Virus record (IMG/VR): IMGVR_UViG_3300043774_001556
Location: 1 to 32,284 of that record
Strand: one strand, 5' to 3'
Length of the DNA stretch: 32,284 nt
From: a virus
Below, in pieces: positions 10,760 to 26,870 of this stretch. Made by a program: the position numbers and the translations under genes. The notes below the pieces were generated by a model. The model did no database searches, was not told where the DNA came from, and was given only the letters and a program-made list of their open reading frames with translations. Numbering within the stretch: the first letter of the stretch is position 1; every line of letters starts with the position of its first letter.

Positions 10760-11902
10760 TCAGGAGAAGGTCGGCGCAGTCTTGCGAATGCCGAGCGCAC
10801 TGGTCAGCTCAACAAGGGAGTAATGCTCCACGCTGATTTTGGTGCGTTTCAGCACCGGCTCAACATACACGCGGAACGTTCCTCCACCTGGCACTGGCGT
10901 CACAAAGCGCTTGATGTTTGAAGCGTCGTTAGTGGTGGCTCCAGCTTTAGTAAAGTAGGAGAACACCTTGTCGCCAACGATCTTACCTTTTGTCGTGGCA
11001 CCTGTTTGGCGGCGGAACTTTGCCACCATCAAACGATCCACCATCAGAAGAGCGCTGAGCTGATCAGGAGTAAGGTTTCGAGTCTGATGACGCGCGGCAT
11101 TGCTGCCGAGGCCAAGAGACAGGAAGCGCTTCACCCATGCGCTGCCACCATAGAGGACGGTGTTGCTGTTAATACCGCGAGCATCGCCACCCAAGTCAAG
11201 GTCAGCCATGATGTTGCCATCAGGATCTGCAGCTGCATTGGATCCACCCCAGTTGGGTGTCAGTGCGGTATCATTCGCTTCCAGCAATGCCTCAACGCGG
11301 TACAACTCCGTGCGAAGAAGTCGGTTGCGGAGGTTGGTGATCCATCGTTGCTGCACGGTCATGTCTTCACCGCCTTGGTCATTGTCGAGAATGACGGTAA
11401 AACCTTTGTTGTGCGTGCGGCCTTCAACTTGAGTTCCCGTAGGACGGACCAGCGGAAATTCACCACCGATTTCTCGGATGTCCTCGTCATTGATCGCGGC
11501 TTGGAAAGCCTCGGCCGTATCATGCTTACGGTAACTGAATGCTCGGCCAACCGGCACTGATGGACATGCTTGTTCCAGCATGATATCCAAACCGTCATCA
11601 TCCGGAGTATCCGCGATGTATTCGGTCAGGGGTTCGCTTAGGTGAGTTGCGTCAAAGTTGGCATCATTGGCAGCTAAGACAATTCCAGATGGCGCATCGT
11701 TGGATGATGGCTTATAGAAATGACTGTTGTCATTGAGCGAGTTGACGTTGGCCGCGAGAGCAGCGAAGCGACTGACAGCAGAACCGGCGGCTTCGCGGCT
11801 GTTAGCCACGAGGGTGCGGCCGGTGTGGGAAACCCATGCAAAGAGCACAGGGGCGATAATGGCGCAAAGCGCCAACATTAGGATGATGTGCAACATTTTC
11901 AT
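10760..11902 (-). CDS. Major capsid protein, Mu gpT-like, with hydrophobic N-terminus (380 aa)
   Basis: Position (after protease-scaffold and cement genes), length and a long alpha/beta body (about residues 80-380) ending in a PGGGTFRVYVEPVLK and VEHYSLVELTS segment mark this as the HK97-fold capsid subunit of the Mu gpT type. The N-terminus is unusual: residues 1-24 form a strongly hydrophobic, signal-peptide-like segment. It is followed by a flexible region with LVAN (31-34), LAAN (49-52) and LAAND (76-80). Capsid proteins normally lack membrane segments, and prohead proteases normally remove an N-terminal delta domain; here the removed part would include the hydrophobic segment if cleavage occurs at the LAAN sites (inference). 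No Shine-Dalgarno is visible before the ATG. Confidence 0.85.
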   Translation of the reverse strand: MKMLHIILMLALCAIIAPVLFAWVSHTGRTLVANSREAAGSAVSRFAALAANVNSLNDNSHFYKPSSNDAPSGIVLAANDANFDATHLSEPLTEYIADTPDDDGLDIMLEQACPSVPVGRAFSYRKHDTAEAFQAAINDEDIREIGGEFPLVRPTGTQVEGRTHNKGFTVILDNDQGGEDMTVQQRWITNLRNRLLRTELYRVEALLEANDTALTPNWGGSNAAADPDGNIMADLDLGGDARGINSNTVLYGGSAWVKRFLSLGLGSNAARHQTRNLTPDQLSALLMVDRLMVAKFRRQTGATTKGKIVGDKVFSYFTKAGATTNDASNIKRFVTPVPGGGTFRVYVEPVLKRTKISVEHYSLVELTSALGIRKTAPTFS

Positions 11903-11934
11903 ATGTGTAAATTAGAAGACTGATTGGCTAGAGG

Positions 11935-12411
11935 TTATGCAAAGACCATGCGAACTGGCGTGCAGCAGACTACCTCGATCACCTCATCGGTGGATCCGGC
12001 GGTCAGTGCAGTGCCCACAAGGTAGACGGTGGCTCCGGTAGGCTGATCTTGCACCTTGCCATTGGCAGCGGTGTAGACTTGCTCTCCGGCGGTGATTGCT
12101 TCAGAGGCGATCATTTTTTTCGTCGGACCTTTACCCAGCAGCAGCACGCTTTGCCGCATGCCAGTCGAGGTCTCGATGTTGTCGATGGTGCCCAGCGGCA
12201 CGTCGCCAGCGCCGCAGATGTCCACCGTGTTGTCACCAGCTCCTTTTTTCCAAAGTAGGTGGCGCGTAGCGATGGCTGCGTCGTTAGTGCGAGTCACGGA
12301 GGATTCGTGAGTTTCCACGGCGGCATCGTAGGTGTTCGCCGCGAGGCGCATGCCTCGGATAGCGGACACCAACGCAGCAACCGCGATGATGATGTGTGTT
12401 TTCATTTTCAT
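11935..12411 (-). CDS. Capsid cement/decoration protein with hydrophobic leader (158 aa)
   Basis: The C-terminal two thirds show the beta-tulip-like cement pattern seen in DUF2190/gpD-type decoration proteins: short strands, G turns such as ITAGEQVYTAANG and a VYLVGTAL strand. It sits between the protease-scaffold and capsid genes, where Mu-like phages encode cement. The first 21 residues are hydrophobic (IIIAVAALVSAI) with a basic start, like a signal peptide, and LAAN lies at residues 23-26. Cleavage there would leave a soluble protein. Residues 28-48 are Thr/Ala/His-rich. The start is preceded by AAACATCATC, the same leader as the tube gene, with no Shine-Dalgarno. Confidence 0.7.
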   Translation of the reverse strand: MKMKTHIIIAVAALVSAIRGMRLAANTYDAAVETHESSVTRTNDAAIATRHLLWKKGAGDNTVDICGAGDVPLGTIDNIETSTGMRQSVLLLGKGPTKKMIASEAITAGEQVYTAANGKVQDQPTGATVYLVGTALTAGSTDEVIEVVCCTPVRMVFA

Positions 12412-12457
12412 GATGATGTTTGGTTTACAGGGTGCGTGTTGCTATGCTACCGGGCGG

Positions 12458-13672
12458 TCACGCTGCCGATCCGGAAGATTCTTTCTTCCCGAAGACCTCG
12501 GGATTCTTTTTCTGAGCACGTTCCCAGGCGATGCGCTTGCGCTCACCCAGGGACAATGTCGGATTGGTGTTTTGAAATTCGTTTTCCACCAACGTGGCAC
12601 GTTCCGCACGTGCCGCAGCAGCGGCATCATTGGAGGCCTGCACCAGGCGTGATTTCTCGCCGCCCAGGTTGCCGGTGACACTAGAGGTTTTCACCTTGGC
12701 TTCCAGTTTGCCTAGGTCTTGCAGCGCCGTTGCAAAGTCATTCGCGGCCAGCAGCTCGCTTACCTTCGCATCACGCTCGGCTGTGGTGATCTTGCCAGAC
12801 TTGACTGCGGCATCTACGGCCGCATTGGCGGCAGCGGTCAGAGCTGACTCCAGGAACACGATTTTGTTGCGGGCAGTCGACGCGGAATTTTCCGCCGCCA
12901 CCTTGTCCTGCTCGGCCTTCTGCTTTTCCTCTTCCGCTTTGAGCTTTGCAACATCCGCATCGAGCTTGGCCTGATTCGCGGCCGCAGCATCGGCTTTATC
13001 CTTCAAAACGGCAGACAGTGCTGCCAGCACATCGTCGTATGTCGCCTCGGGAGGCAGACCCAGCATTTCGATCATCTTGGTAAGATCCATATCGTTGTTT
13101 TGTTGTTGAGATTCGTCCTCGTCGCCCATGTCATCTTCCTGATCGGCTTCATTCGCCAATGCAGGCACGGGGATATTCGGGTCATTGGTCAGGCCCATAC
13201 TTTTCAGAGAGACCGGCTGCACCACGCCGCGCTTGGCTGGTTTGGTCCACCAAAGCGGGGAATAGAACCGGAAATGCCCATTCTCAACTAGCTCGCGCCC
13301 AGCATCACTCCACTTCACAGGCAGACGGAGTCCATCATTTTCGGCAATCATGTCCTCGATCCAGCCATAGGCACGTTTGTCCGTGTCCTTTGATCCTGGC
13401 AAATCAGGGTGACCGATATAAACGGGGTAGCTGGCCGATTTGCCTCGTGCCCAGCTTACGATCTTGTTGAGCATCCCGTTGTGGTTCGCCACCATTTCCT
13501 CCGCAGCAGCTTTATCGAATCTCTGCAAGCCCAGCTTGTGCGGGAATTCACCGTAAGGCACAAAAAAGCCATCCGGTTGTAGGATCGCAAATGGGCTTCC
13601 GCCATCCGCAGCATTGGCGAGGATTGCCTGGGCGGCATCATTGGCCGCAAGAACGTAACGTTTCAGTTTCAT
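12458..13672 (-). CDS. Prohead protease-scaffold fusion, Mu gpI-like (404 aa)
   Basis: The N-terminal 170 residues form the protease part, with a Y-I-G-H-P-D turn at 85-90, a GYIEDM-like YGWIEDM strand and an FRFYSPLWW segment (135-142) that matches the conserved Y-S-P region of Mu gpI-type proteases. An acidic linker (about 176-195) leads to a long coiled-coil scaffold (about 215-330) rich in A, K, E and D, then a basic C-terminal tail (360-395). This matches Mu I/Z, where the protease carries its own scaffold at the C-terminus. LAAND occurs at residues 8-12 and 308-312, possibly autocleavage sites. It lies between the portal gene (4-nt overlap with the portal stop region) and the cement gene. 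Confidence 0.85.
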   Translation of the reverse strand: MKLKRYVLAANDAAQAILANAADGGSPFAILQPDGFFVPYGEFPHKLGLQRFDKAAAEEMVANHNGMLNKIVSWARGKSASYPVYIGHPDLPGSKDTDKRAYGWIEDMIAENDGLRLPVKWSDAGRELVENGHFRFYSPLWWTKPAKRGVVQPVSLKSMGLTNDPNIPVPALANEADQEDDMGDEDESQQQNNDMDLTKMIEMLGLPPEATYDDVLAALSAVLKDKADAAAANQAKLDADVAKLKAEEEKQKAEQDKVAAENSASTARNKIVFLESALTAAANAAVDAAVKSGKITTAERDAKVSELLAANDFATALQDLGKLEAKVKTSSVTGNLGGEKSRLVQASNDAAAAARAERATLVENEFQNTNPTLSLGERKRIAWERAQKKNPEVFGKKESSGSAA

Positions 13673-15105
13673 GGTTGGTCTTGGTTGTTGGTTCGGAGCA
13701 GTGCTTCCGTTAGAAGTTTTGTGACCGCATCATCCAAAGCGGCATTGGTGAGTTTGTCGGGCAGTAATGCGGCCGCCTCCTGGAGCAATCGCGCTCGCTC
13801 TTTACCCTCTGCGCGCAGGGCCTGATCGATCAACACCGCCACATCGGCAAAGCCTTCCGCCACCAGCCCGCGCAATTCATCTGCCTGAAAATACTCGGCC
13901 TCATTGGCCATGGTGACGGTAGGCACTACCACCGGCTGCGCGATCTCGCGTCCGTAACGCTCTGCCAGATCTTCCGGATCCTGCTTCACGCCCAGCTCGG
14001 ACAGCCCCCTGTCGATGTTGAGTTCGCGCACCAGATCTTCATCGCTTGGTGGATTGACCACGATGTAGGCGGCCGGCTTCACGTCGCCATGCACCATGCG
14101 GATCACCATGCGGTCGAGTTGAGTTTGCAGTGTCTCGGAAATCATCGCGCAGTCATCCTGCAGCAGCGCATCCATTTCATCGGTTTGCGGATTGCTGCCC
14201 GTGCCATCGCCACGAGAAATGGTGGAAAGGTCACCCCCGCGAACAAGGGTGGCAATGCCGCGATCCATATACTCGATGATGCTCATCTGAGGCAGCGTGC
14301 CGCTGCTCGGCGTTTGCATGATTTCGATCGGGCTCTTGATAGATCCGTCATCATTGTAGGTCACCCCAATCCAATCGGCGGCATAGGACATCACGCTATC
14401 GCGCATCGCTTTTCCGGCATCGCTGTCTTTCGCCGCAGTGGTGCGCCCCAGCACACCAGGGATGGAAAACTTTTCAGAAAAGGCGATGAGATCTTGCACG
14501 CCCAGGCGCTTGAACATGTAGAGGATGGAAAGAGCCTCACCCAAGCCATCGCCCACCGTCACCATCCAGCCGCCCTCTTCCAGGGGCGTTCCATCGGCAC
14601 GGTTGTCCACGCCCACGAACTTGAGCTTACCCGTGCGGTTCTCGAAGAAATACAGTGGCACGCGCCGCAGCTCAGCCGTAACGCCATCGCCATCTAGCTT
14701 CCAGATAATTTCGTGCACCGCATACTTCTGCAGCACGGCATCCATCATCTGGCGTAGCAGGCCGCTCACGCCGGTTCGGACATTCAGGTCCGTGGCATCG
14801 GTCACTGTGAGGTTGTTGTAAAAATACTCCAGCGTGGCTTTGTGTGCTTCGGCATTAGGATCATCCGGATCAGGCGTGATGATCTGCCAGTCCCGGCGGG
14901 CCACTGCCGCGCGGCGCTTGGCCATCACCGACTTGATCATGAACTCGCGCGACTCGATGGTTTCAAAGATCAACGCCGCGTCCCGCAGCCAACCTGCTGC
15001 GAATTGATCGAGCGATGAGGCTAACTTCTCCGGAGTAAGCGATCGCAGCGGATTGAACCGCGTCAGACGCCAGCGTTGACCCAGACTCTCCATGTCAAAA
15101 CTCAC
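13669..15105 (-). CDS. Portal protein, Mu gp29-like (DUF935), GTG start (478 aa)
   Basis: DUF935 portals are recognised by length and by motifs present here: an N-terminal PLRSLTPEKLASSLD region, SREFMIKSVMAKRRAAVARRDW, VHEIIWK, LYFFENRTGKLKFVG, the wing segment and RGGDLSTISRGDGTGSNPQTDEM. The portal is the dodecameric DNA channel of the head. The start codon is GTG at 15105, supported by AGGAGG 6 nt upstream; an ATG four codons later would leave 18 nt to the same site. The GTG overlaps the terminase stop as GTGA. The C-terminal 100 residues are helical and less conserved. It overlaps the protease gene by 4 nt. Confidence 0.9.
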   Translation of the reverse strand: MSFDMESLGQRWRLTRFNPLRSLTPEKLASSLDQFAAGWLRDAALIFETIESREFMIKSVMAKRRAAVARRDWQIITPDPDDPNAEAHKATLEYFYNNLTVTDATDLNVRTGVSGLLRQMMDAVLQKYAVHEIIWKLDGDGVTAELRRVPLYFFENRTGKLKFVGVDNRADGTPLEEGGWMVTVGDGLGEALSILYMFKRLGVQDLIAFSEKFSIPGVLGRTTAAKDSDAGKAMRDSVMSYAADWIGVTYNDDGSIKSPIEIMQTPSSGTLPQMSIIEYMDRGIATLVRGGDLSTISRGDGTGSNPQTDEMDALLQDDCAMISETLQTQLDRMVIRMVHGDVKPAAYIVVNPPSDEDLVRELNIDRGLSELGVKQDPEDLAERYGREIAQPVVVPTVTMANEAEYFQADELRGLVAEGFADVAVLIDQALRAEGKERARLLQEAAALLPDKLTNAALDDAVTKLLTEALLRTNNQDQP

Positions 15106-23630: not shown

Positions 23631-25742
23631 ATGTCACTCGCGCTCAAATCCCTGCACCCTGAGGAGCTACACGATTTCTCACAACTTCGTGAAGACGTTC
23701 GCCGCGATGTGCTCATGTGGATGGAAGCGATCAAAGAGTTGAACTCTGCCGGGCGAGGAACCACGGGGCAGGTGATCGCATCGATCTGCACCCGCCTGCG
23801 AGTGTCACCAGGCACTGTCTATCGAAAAATCGAGGCATTCAGAGAGCGTGGATGGACGGGCCTTATCAATGGCGCGAAATGCCCCGAGAGTGGATTGCCT
23901 CCCGCATTCAAAGCTTGGGTGGAATCCCTGCATCTTCGCAATCAGCGCGATAGCTCCGGCGCTGCCGTGCAGCGCATCGTCATCGATCAATGGTCTCTCT
24001 GGCGGCGCACCGGTGATCCGCAGCACGCATTGCCAGGATACACAACGCCTCCACCACCCAGCGTAAAAGGATACCCCGCTGGGTTCAGCGTAAAAAATCT
24101 CAATCGCCTCAAACCCTGCCAGCACAATCAGCGCCTCGCCCGCCAAGGCACCAAAGCTGCCAGCGCCTTTCTCCCCTCCATCCTCAAGACTCGTGTCGGC
24201 CTCAAATTCGGACAGGTCATGTTCTTCGATGACCAGGACTACGATCAGCGCATCGTCGCTCCAGGACTTAGCCAGAAGGCCATGCGCCCCCAGGGATTCA
24301 ATGCGCTCGATTATCTCTCCGGCTGCTTTGTCGACTACATCATCCGCTCGCGCTATCTCGATGCCGATAGCGACACCGTGAAGTCTCTCAACCAGCAAGA
24401 CTTTGTTTGGTTCGTGATTCACGTGCTCACTCACATTGGCTATCGCACGGATGATGAAGGTTCCATTTTCGTTTTCGAACACGGCACCGCATCCGGCTAC
24501 AACAACCAAAAGATCGAGACCGCCAATGGCATCAGCAACTTCGATGAAGCCCTGGCATTCGTCACCGGTGGCAAGCTCCGCATCGATCGCTCCGGCCTCT
24601 TCAATCAACCAGCATTCGCTGGCATGCTCTTCCGCCCGCAAAGCTCTGGCAACTTCCGCTTCAAGTCTCCCATCGAGTCCATGTTCAATCTCGTCCGCAA
24701 TGAGTCCAGCATGCTGCTCGGCCAGATCGGCCTGAATGAGCGCACGCACGGCCCCGAAGAAAACTATGGCCTCGATATCTATACCACCCAGCTGCTCAAA
24801 GCCTACGCCACACTCTCACCGGAACGCCAAGAAATGATTCGCTGGCCGCTGCACACGCTCGCGCAATTCGGCCAGCTCTACGCTTCCATCTATGAGACCA
24901 TCAACGCCCGCACAGATCACGCTCTGGAAGGCTGGGAGTCATGCGGCCATGTGGTTCCGCTCATCCGATTGGCTCCATCTGATGACGCGCCTTGGATGAC
25001 ACCGGACCAGCTGGCCAAGCTGCCAGCCCGCACCCAAGAACTCGCCCTCAGTTTGCTCGATGCACCTGGCTTCACCAAACCCCATCGCCTCAGCCCTCGC
25101 CAAGTCATGGAGATGCACAAGGGCGAACTCACCAAACTTCCCAAGTCCGCCGTGCCGCTGCTCATCCCGCGCCAGTGGGCGAGGGAAGTCACCGTAAAGA
25201 GCGACCGCACCATCACCATCCAAGACCAGCTCGCGGGGCCAGAGCCTTTCATCTATCTCTGCCGCATCATCACTCGCCACGGAGCAGAAATGCTTCGCCC
25301 TGGACTGAAACTGTTAGCTCGCTTCAATCCTGCCGATCCCACCGAGGTTTGCATCTCGGATGAGAATGACTGCTACATCGGTCACCTCGCCGCCACGACA
25401 CGTATCGGATTCATGGATACCGATGCCATGACCGCTCGCCTCGGCGAGCGCAGCGCCATCAAGGCAGACCTGGAAGCCCCGGTCCGCAATGCCCTTGCAC
25501 CTGTCATCCAAGACCGCATGGAAATGCGCGAGCACAATGATCGCCTCATCACCGGCGCACCCGTGACCGAGGAGGAAATCGCGGCCGCCCGCAGTGAGTC
25601 TGCACAGAAGGCTGTCACTACCCGCCGCCACCGCTCCTGGGCAGAGCATCTTGACGAGGCTGCGATTTCCCAAGCCCTCACTCCCGAGCAAGTGCAGCCC
25701 GCCATCAGCGACGAAACCATCGCTCACTACCTCGAAGATTGA
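23631..25742 (+). CDS. MuA-type transposase, DDE recombinase (703 aa)
   Basis: Layout: N-terminal HTH (about residues 45-80, TGQVIAS...VSPGTVYRKIEAFRERG), second DNA-binding region (about 90-185), RNase H-like core (190-365) and a C-terminal beta-barrel/MuB-contact region (about 500-703). Core carboxylates: D200/D201 in MFFDDQD, E349 in SPIESMF, but the second position reads F-E-H-G-T-A (E283) where Asp is usual. The transposase cuts phage ends, joins them to target DNA and drives replicative transposition. It precedes MuB as in Mu. It starts directly after heptad block H6 with no Shine-Dalgarno. The length is close to Mu A (663 aa). No frameshift or stop is seen. Confidence 0.9.
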   Translation: MSLALKSLHPEELHDFSQLREDVRRDVLMWMEAIKELNSAGRGTTGQVIASICTRLRVSPGTVYRKIEAFRERGWTGLINGAKCPESGLPPAFKAWVESLHLRNQRDSSGAAVQRIVIDQWSLWRRTGDPQHALPGYTTPPPPSVKGYPAGFSVKNLNRLKPCQHNQRLARQGTKAASAFLPSILKTRVGLKFGQVMFFDDQDYDQRIVAPGLSQKAMRPQGFNALDYLSGCFVDYIIRSRYLDADSDTVKSLNQQDFVWFVIHVLTHIGYRTDDEGSIFVFEHGTASGYNNQKIETANGISNFDEALAFVTGGKLRIDRSGLFNQPAFAGMLFRPQSSGNFRFKSPIESMFNLVRNESSMLLGQIGLNERTHGPEENYGLDIYTTQLLKAYATLSPERQEMIRWPLHTLAQFGQLYASIYETINARTDHALEGWESCGHVVPLIRLAPSDDAPWMTPDQLAKLPARTQELALSLLDAPGFTKPHRLSPRQVMEMHKGELTKLPKSAVPLLIPRQWAREVTVKSDRTITIQDQLAGPEPFIYLCRIITRHGAEMLRPGLKLLARFNPADPTEVCISDENDCYIGHLAATTRIGFMDTDAMTARLGERSAIKADLEAPVRNALAPVIQDRMEMREHNDRLITGAPVTEEEIAAARSESAQKAVTTRRHRSWAEHLDEAAISQALTPEQVQPAISDETIAHYLED

Positions 25743-25763: not shown

Positions 25764-26870
25764 ATGGCAAAAACAACAACAACAATACCCACCGATACCA
25801 CCACAGAAGAACTGCGCGGAGCATCCATCGTTGCACGCGGCGAATCCGCTCTCGCCTCCTCGGCGCACAGCAGAATCAACATCCCGTTCAATCTCAATTC
25901 ATGGCGCGAACTGGATCCAGAAATTGCCGAAGAGCTTGCATGGTTTCATCAACACAGCCTGGAAGAAAATCTGGACTGGAAACAAGTCTGCAACGCGCTC
26001 AACTACTCACAGACCGTGATCTTCCGCGTGCTGAAAGGCACCTACGAAGGAAGCTGGGACAAAGTGGTGGAGAGCATCAAATCCTACCGCCGCATTATCA
26101 CGGAACGGGTCGCCATCAAGCACGCAGATTTTCGTGAGACACGCATCACTCGCCTCGTCACCGGCGGCCTCACCTACGCTCTGGCAAACAACTCCATTAC
26201 CAAGATCACTGGTGAGTCACGCCAAGGCAAAACCGTAGCTGCAAAATGGTGGCGTGATCAGAACAACCACGGCCGCACCGCCTACATCACCGCACCCGCC
26301 ATCGGCGGCGCAAAACCGCTCCTCAAAGAACTCGCCATGGTCCTCGGCATCAACAAGGCCAATAGCACCACGAACATGCACGATGCCATCCTGCGCGCCT
26401 TCAACAGCAACCGCATGCTCATCGTCGACGAGGCGCACCGGCTGCTCCCCAAAGACCGCCGCACCGATCCCACGCTGCTGGAGATCCTTCGCGATATCCA
26501 CGACCGCACCGGCTGCGGTCTCGGCCTGCTCACCACCCGCCGGTTCGATGAAGGCATCGCCAAGAGCGACTACATGTATGAGCAAGTTCTCGGCCGTATC
26601 GGCATGCCGGTGCAATTGCCCCGCGAATTCGAATGGGATGACATTGGCCCCATCGTCGATCAATACCTTGCGCACACTCCGGCGGATCTTCGCAAAGAAC
26701 TTATCAAAATCGCCAATAGCCCAGGCCGCCTTGGCATCGTCTGCGAGACCCTGAAATTCGCCAGCCGCATCGCCAAGAAAAAGGACTGCAAACTCACTGC
26801 AGCGGAGGTGAAAGAGTCCATGGCCGTCCGTCACCAAATGATGGGAGAAACCCAATACGCCAAGAAATGA
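25764..26870 (+). CDS. MuB-type AAA+ ATPase, transposition target selector (368 aa)
   Basis: Walker A is GESRQGKT (150-157) and Walker B is MLIVDEA (218-224), followed by HRLLPKDRR. The LTTRRFDEG segment (about 257-265) may contribute a sensor arginine. An N-terminal extension (45-130) has a helix-turn-helix-like region (WKQVCNALNYSQTVIFRVLKG) longer than needed for the ATPase, matching Mu B, whose N-terminal part binds DNA. The C-terminal 60 residues are helical and basic. MuB binds DNA, recruits the transposase and prevents self-insertion. Encoded directly after MuA and preceded by a CACACACATC leader with no Shine-Dalgarno. Confidence 0.85.
   Translation: MAKTTTTIPTDTTTEELRGASIVARGESALASSAHSRINIPFNLNSWRELDPEIAEELAWFHQHSLEENLDWKQVCNALNYSQTVIFRVLKGTYEGSWDKVVESIKSYRRIITERVAIKHADFRETRITRLVTGGLTYALANNSITKITGESRQGKTVAAKWWRDQNNHGRTAYITAPAIGGAKPLLKELAMVLGINKANSTTNMHDAILRAFNSNRMLIVDEAHRLLPKDRRTDPTLLEILRDIHDRTGCGLGLLTTRRFDEGIAKSDYMYEQVLGRIGMPVQLPREFEWDDIGPIVDQYLAHTPADLRKELIKIANSPGRLGIVCETLKFASRIAKKKDCKLTAAEVKESMAVRHQMMGETQYAKK

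Follow-up and report, generated by a model that had tools for sequence, protein, structure and literature searches.

We describe a short peptide motif, built around an Asn residue, that is shared by the protease-scaffold, cement and capsid proteins of a transposable, Mu-like phage carried on the IMG/VR contig IMGVR_UViG_3300043774_001556; positions 1 to 32,284 of that record (32,284 nucleotides) were analysed and are referred to below as the window. Comparison of these proteins with those of related phages leads us to conclude that the phage's head-maturation protease, a serine protease of the gpI type, very probably recognises the motif as its signal, and cleavage at the motif is predicted. 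The enzyme type and the process are known, the recognition residue is new and the substrates are unusual, the most unusual feature being the membrane-helix-like leaders of the cement proteins.

The window capsid used as a single-protein query found no relatives among viral and genome contigs. The first kin were obtained by terminase and portal searches, and a capsid profile then yielded 80 viral and 19 genome contigs; nearly all relatives with named genomes belong to Verrucomicrobiota. The alignments comprise 90 capsids and 63 proteases, and approximately 84 protease-scaffold proteins entered the enrichment counts. Individual contigs are denoted by L numbers.

The motif and the proteins that carry it

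The three proteins and the predicted catalytic residues of the protease are located as follows:

12458..13672, minus strand: protease-scaffold fusion, Mu gpI-like, 404 residues (protease domain approximately 28-170, scaffold approximately 195-404)
13409..13411, minus strand: predicted catalytic His88 (GHPD), invariant in 63 relatives
13259..13261, minus strand: predicted catalytic Ser138 (YSPLWW), invariant in 63 relatives
11935..12411, minus strand: putative cement (decoration) protein precursor, 158 residues (PF09956 below cut-off; phrog_673)
10760..11902, minus strand: major capsid protein precursor, 380 residues, HK97 fold (AlphaFold2, AF2, and Foldseek; phrog_1005 weak)

The protease matches PF10123 (E=6.7e-27, 95.3 bits against a cut-off of 25.2) and phrog_328, head maturation protease, and His88 and Ser138 are the sole residues invariant across the aligned relatives. 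The AF2 model (pLDDT, the predicted local distance difference test, of 84) has low-confidence linkers at residues 12-29 and 176-192 and, after the protease domain, a helix at 212-291 in the fused coiled-coil scaffold, the gene lying ahead of that for the capsid. Foldseek places T4 gp21 first for this model (E=4.7e-3, probability 0.91, full chain) and herpesvirus proteases next, with a modest score, and a sequence search of the PDB with the protease profile gave nothing convincing, mostly coiled coils at E above 0.1. The capsid was assigned from its structure model (pLDDT 86.5), for which 3bjq is the nearest Foldseek match (E=5e-14) and HK97 prohead I is also found (E=5e-7); no Pfam family, that of Mu gpT included, matches the capsid at E 1e-3, and phrog_1005 is the only match, at 7e-4. 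The cement protein reaches 20.5 bits with PF09956 (Phage_cement_2), for which the cut-off is 24, and 1.3e-11 with phrog_673, which is labelled head scaffolding protein. The gene thus fits a scaffolding label better than the Pfam cement family, and a decoration protein and a core protein are both possible.

The sites and leaders in these proteins are:

13637..13651, minus strand: LAAND, protease residues 8-12 (N11); same in L002
13610..13621, minus strand: LANA, protease 18-21 (N20), candidate N-terminal processing site; Asn in 57 of 63 relatives, His in 3
13148..13159, minus strand: LANE, protease 172-175 (N174), protease/scaffold boundary; Asn in 60 of 63 relatives, His in 2
12737..12751, minus strand: LAAND, scaffold 308-312 (N311); conserved in L002
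12626..12640, minus strand: QASND, scaffold 345-349, probable weak or degenerate site; aligns with LAANDE of L002
12334..12411, minus strand: cement leader, residues 1-26, a hydrophobic helix followed by LAAN (12334-12345); leader KD19 1.92
11666..11902, minus strand: capsid leader (propeptide), residues 1-79, with hydrophobic N-terminus; length up to the conserved Asn varies widely in relatives
11801..11812, minus strand: LVAN, capsid 31-34, secondary leader site; LAAN at the equivalent place in L014
11747..11758, minus strand: LAAN, capsid 49-52, secondary leader site; LAGN at the equivalent place in L002 and L014
11663..11677, minus strand: LAAND, capsid 76-80 (N79), principal capsid site; Asn in 86 of 90 aligned capsids, His in 2

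In the protease, cement and capsid together LAAN occurs 5 times compared to 0.087 expected from composition shuffles, none of 5000 of which reached 5, and LAAND occurs 3 times compared to 0.007 expected in shuffles of the same proteins. No two of the six copies, LVAN included, share a codon string; the likeness is thus one of protein sequence, and recent DNA duplication is ruled out as its source. An ssrA/SspB degradation tag (AANDENY...) was also considered and is ruled out, as such a tag is C-terminal, whereas the motif stands at N-termini or inside the proteins, and as its sequence changes to FANE, LANE and LAHE.

An initial annotation of the window had proposed LAAN(D) as a shared maturation signal absent as a group from other late proteins. 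All the positions it gave (LAAND at protease 8-12 and 308-312, LAAN at cement 23-26, and LVAN, LAAN and LAAND at capsid 31-34, 49-52 and 76-80) are correct and the sites are real, but the list is incomplete in that the single-Ala LAN at protease residues 18-20 and 172-174 was overlooked, because one Ala stands there instead of two. The absence elsewhere holds for strict LAAN, which is not found in any of the 34 other plausible genes of the window (8244 residues), but not for the loose form [LMFIV]A(A)N, which occurs 10 times elsewhere in the window, for example as MANEAE at residue 399 of the portal. The shared signal itself is real but wider than LAAN(D), being better described as [L/F/M/A]-A-N.

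Conservation and concerted change across the family

Among the relatives the motif takes the form [L/F/M/A]-A-N-[E/D/A/S] and stands at homologous places in capsid, cement, protease and scaffold. It is found 286 times in the protease-scaffold proteins compared to 23.9 expected (12-fold) and 99 times in capsid N-terminal regions compared to 4.9 expected (20-fold); the reversed motif gives 51 versus 24.7 (2-fold) and 3 versus 5.0 (0.6-fold), respectively, and in control open reading frames (ORFs) the motif is found 218 times versus 94 (2.3-fold). Expressed per 1000 residues, the motif rate is 9.0 in protease, 3.9 in capsid, 3.0 in cement, 1.8 in portal, 0.9 in terminase and 0.5 in gp36; the terminase and gp36 rates, like those of other head genes, are close to background. 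With the motif loosely defined, the median number of sites per scaffold protein is 8, and their median spacing is 33 residues. A comparison with relatives had been named beforehand as the test that could overturn the proposal; the motif turned out to be neither random nor unconserved, with Asn fixed at the capsid and cement junctions and at two places in the protease.

The best conserved protease sites are those of N20, just ahead of the protease domain, and N174, at the end of the domain and directly followed by the low-confidence linker 176-192. In the capsids, the residue before the N79 equivalent is Ala in 75 of 90, Gly in 3, Cys in 3, Ser in 2 and Val in 3; two positions before the Asn (position -2) Leu, Ala, Phe or Met is most frequent, and Glu, Asp or Ala follows the Asn. 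Upstream of this Asn both length and sequence are variable and downstream the HK97 body is conserved; the blocks at residues 21-70 have the lowest confidence of the capsid model. The window leader can be aligned with that of L014, with differences of 32, 28 and 47 at the first, second and third codon positions, and since third positions are the most divergent the leader is probably real coding sequence. It is not common to all close kin, as the capsid of L002 starts 42 residues later, and a membrane-type helix opens the leader in three aligned capsids (window, L014 and L049).

The cement leader is present in 81 of 90 copies of the family, 56 of which have a strongly hydrophobic stretch of 19 residues, and the window leader is shared with L002, L014 and L015. 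At the column of the window's N26, 78 aligned rows have a residue, which is Asn in 74; in 3 more rows the Asn stands one column earlier. This column is the end of the leader; other copies begin at the body, as in 'MSIGTHENG' compared to '...LAN-VAEGTHEDG'.

The sites also change together. In L093, L111 and L124 the Asn is replaced by His at the protease N-terminus (VAHE), at the boundary (LPHE), in the scaffold (LAHEK or LSHEK) and in the capsid (LAHEA). A second kind of covariation involves position -2, which is Phe in L059, L062, L065, L066, L073, L078 and L081, Ala in the clade of the window and Leu in most others; in L059, L078 and L081, members of the Phe clade, both capsid and cement have FCN. 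Scaffold and capsid match at this position at a rate of 0.455 compared to 0.212 after permutation (capsids below 50% identity, n=23), and cement equals capsid in 50 of 76 cases compared to 20.4 permuted, or in 9 of 18 compared to 4.0 among representatives below 50% identity (p=0.006). On the sequences compared, the concerted change to His is stronger evidence than the matching at position -2.

Several observations weigh against interpreting these patterns as the specificity of a protease. The three genomes with His are related, and the switch counts as a single evolutionary event; L089 and L128 have L/M-A-D in the capsid but mostly L/M-V-N in the scaffold. The matching at position -2 is structured by clade, and control ORFs show a weaker effect of the same kind (0.198 compared to 0.115 permuted, p=0.0006, below 50% identity); in a tree-based independent-pairs test there were too few switches for significance, with at most 6 pairs on supported branches among those listed and about one of them in which both traits differed. 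Because of the clade structure and the low power of the phylogenetic test, we take the covariation as supporting only. Furthermore, the capsid has no match among the phage records searched, and those records yielded no isolated member of the family. The proposal that the motif serves a gpI-type protease is nevertheless supported by the conserved positions, the scaffold repeats and the concerted His change, cleavage itself being predicted.

Some related genomes depart from the common arrangement. In a group that contains Akkermansia (L107, L112, L050 and L095), REECHN or REEVCN is found in the protease N-terminus or the cement leader and REVVCN in the capsid leader, which we read as a divergent form of the signal. 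An extra scaffold-like ORF lies between protease and cement in L106 (646-1188), L110 (4062-4556), L062, L065, L066, L068 and L105, with LANE repeats in L106 and L110, where a separate gene seems to encode part of the scaffold. In the window, Met195 of the protease (MDLTKM, positions 13073-13090) lies downstream of the boundary site, with no strong Shine-Dalgarno sequence evident just upstream, and may be the internal start of a separate scaffold, like that of Mu gpZ; Met followed by hydrophobic residues is found within 45 residues after the boundary in 46 of 70 relatives. One clade has a second small ORF between cement and capsid (L029:4609-5037, L042:4136-4834, L044:4421-4807, L045:4428-4820 and L047:4598-4939), which is possibly another virion protein; a hydrophobic leader is frequent, and most have a body like 'QYDVAYAIRVSGTGP'.

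The predicted scissile bond, other explanations and a proposed maturation scheme

If the motif is cut, the cut is probably on the C-terminal side of Asn, with Leu, Phe, Met or Ala at P3, Ala or another small residue at P2 and Asn at P1, since the invariant residue occupies P1 in the layout of T4 and the giant phages. A less probable but serious variant, opposed to a cut after Asn, places the scissile bond between Ala (P1) and Asn (P1'), like the Ala|Ser of herpesvirus maturation sites. It is favoured by the small residue at position -1 in most capsids (Ala in 75 of 90) and by the apparent fold relationship to herpesvirus proteases, but position -1 is laxer than the Asn, with Pro, Phe, Val and Leu at protease sites, and in T4 the cut made by gp21, the nearest solved fold, follows the invariant residue.

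Two explanations dispense with cleavage at the motif. The Asn could be structural, serving in the capsid as helix N-cap or N-arm contact and in the scaffold as a helix breaker; in the capsid model a short helix indeed begins near residue 80, and the scaffold site 308-312 falls at the break between the AF2 helices 297-309 and 313-321. We consider this improbable, as it leaves unexplained why the same motif is found in three unrelated folds at junctions of leader and body and also as scaffold repeats, why some cements lack both the leader and the motif, and why His replaces Asn across all sites. Slightly less probable still is a role in docking or packaging, in which the scaffold or the protease would bind the motif and so recruit proteins into the prohead. 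The presence of the motif in leaders and scaffold would suit such a role, and the capsid-targeting sequences of T4 are likewise leader peptides (PMC9026906); the T4 protease removes those leaders, however, so that both roles coexist, and a cut site would be expected just where the conserved residue stands, at the junction of leader and body and at the ends of the protease domain. Chance has a negligible probability: the window scaffold is Ala-rich, with AAA as its commonest tripeptide, and such a coiled coil might yield AAN repeatedly, but shuffles, reversed and permuted motifs and fixed homologous positions exclude composition as the cause.

With the motif as a cleavage signal, the simplest account, maturation would proceed as follows. 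Once the prohead has assembled, the protease would excise itself by cuts at N20 and N174 and break the scaffold down to short peptides able to exit the shell. It would also strip the leaders from the capsid protein, which would then start near D80, and from cement, which would start near T27. Until they are cut, the hydrophobic leaders would tether cement, and in the clade of the window also capsid, at the membrane or the prohead core, which is the weakest inference of the scheme. Proheads of T4 and SPN3US assemble on the inner membrane and are released after proteolysis (PMC9026906), and membrane tethering of cement until cleavage is for this reason plausible. We propose tentatively, and with more doubt than confidence, that cement (and capsid in the window's clade) is a membrane-anchored precursor released by the head protease at Leu-Ala-Asn, so that assembly, membrane release and decoration would be coupled through a single protease specificity, co-evolving in three or four proteins. 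No report of a decoration protein losing a membrane-type leader was found in the literature searched.

Gene order and comparison with known systems

The minus-strand gene order is terminase, Portal_Mu portal, PF10123 protease-scaffold, cement-like protein, capsid and gp36. Further genes of the window are:

13669-15105: portal (Portal_Mu)
23631-25742: probable transposase, long neighbour of the MuB-like ATPase (weak winged-helix match)
25764-26870: MuB-like ATPase (AAA_22 match; weak TniB and MuB_C matches)

In portals of the window and its relatives the motif is approximately 3-fold over expectation, mostly in the C-terminal part, where the window has MANEAE, and the portal may be trimmed as well.

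The nearest solved fold is that of T4 gp21. The T4 protease cuts after L/I-X-E, dividing the scaffold gp22 into many fragments and trimming the N-terminus of the capsid protein, and an L/I-X-E tripeptide is also found close to the start of gp21 itself (LIE-9) (PMC9026906). The T4 proteins with such sites include gp22, gp23, gp24 and the internal proteins. The two systems are alike in a three-residue signal common to the scaffold, where there are many sites, the capsid propeptide and the protease, and the scaffold spacing found here is comparable to the cutting of gp22 into multiple fragments. They differ in the invariant residue, which here is Asn or, in one clade, His and in T4 the P1 Glu, in the joining here of protease and scaffold into one polypeptide and in the predicted processing of a decoration protein as well. 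In SPN3US the signal is A-X-E, propeptides contain several such sites, and homologous giant-phage proteases differ in specificity (PMC10052503; PMC5694885). The proteases phiKZ gp175 (S-X-E) and SPN3US gp245 (A-X-E) thus resemble the system described here in that specificity shifts with P1 fixed and a propeptide has several sites, and differ in that P1 is Glu and the phage lineage is unrelated. In these phages the protease is encoded by a separate gene.

Phage Mu (gpI/gpZ), D3112 and JBD30 share with the window a PF10123 protease fused to the scaffold, and in D3112 the genes are also ordered as in the window, those for protease and capsid being separated by one for a small virion protein. The sampled capsids of Mu and of Mu-like Pseudomonas aeruginosa phages have, in contrast, neither a leader nor an N-terminal LAN site, and the start of Mu gpT is annotated as confirmed by amino-acid sequencing. 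In JBD30 the capsid N-arm is resolved from residue 6 and decoration proteins are absent from the procapsid (PMC11445458); the latter makes the question of cement tethering an interesting one. The classical Mu-like phages therefore have the same protease family with capsids that, where known, are unprocessed. The scaffolds of most sampled Mu-type gpI proteins contain A-L-[S/T] repeats (L113:1057-2142, phage Mu; L118, L119, L121 and L114), with 8 occurrences compared to 0.83 expected in Mu and 9 compared to 0.85 in the Mannheimia protein, none of the reversed motif, and weaker excess in others. This suggests that A-L-S/T is the maturation signal of phage Mu and that the signal of each lineage can be read from its scaffold; no description of Mu gpI cleavage sites was found in the papers searched. 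Head-protease specificity and the mature N-termini of its substrates would then be predictable from sequence in a large uncultured phage family, with the scaffold repeats as the key.

The capsids of HK97 and T5 have an N-terminal delta-domain (PMC3185693). The likeness lies in the N-terminal region of an HK97-fold capsid that is predicted to be removed on maturation, and the differences in a leader of highly variable length, a separate scaffold and the membrane-type helix in the window, L014 and L049. Herpesvirus assemblin is a probable fold relative of the window protease; it is made as a protease-scaffold precursor with internal cleavage sites, uses a different recognition sequence and has no capsid propeptide to remove. 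In this fold group the characterised phage proteases cut after Glu, to which the system described here would add Asn and also His.

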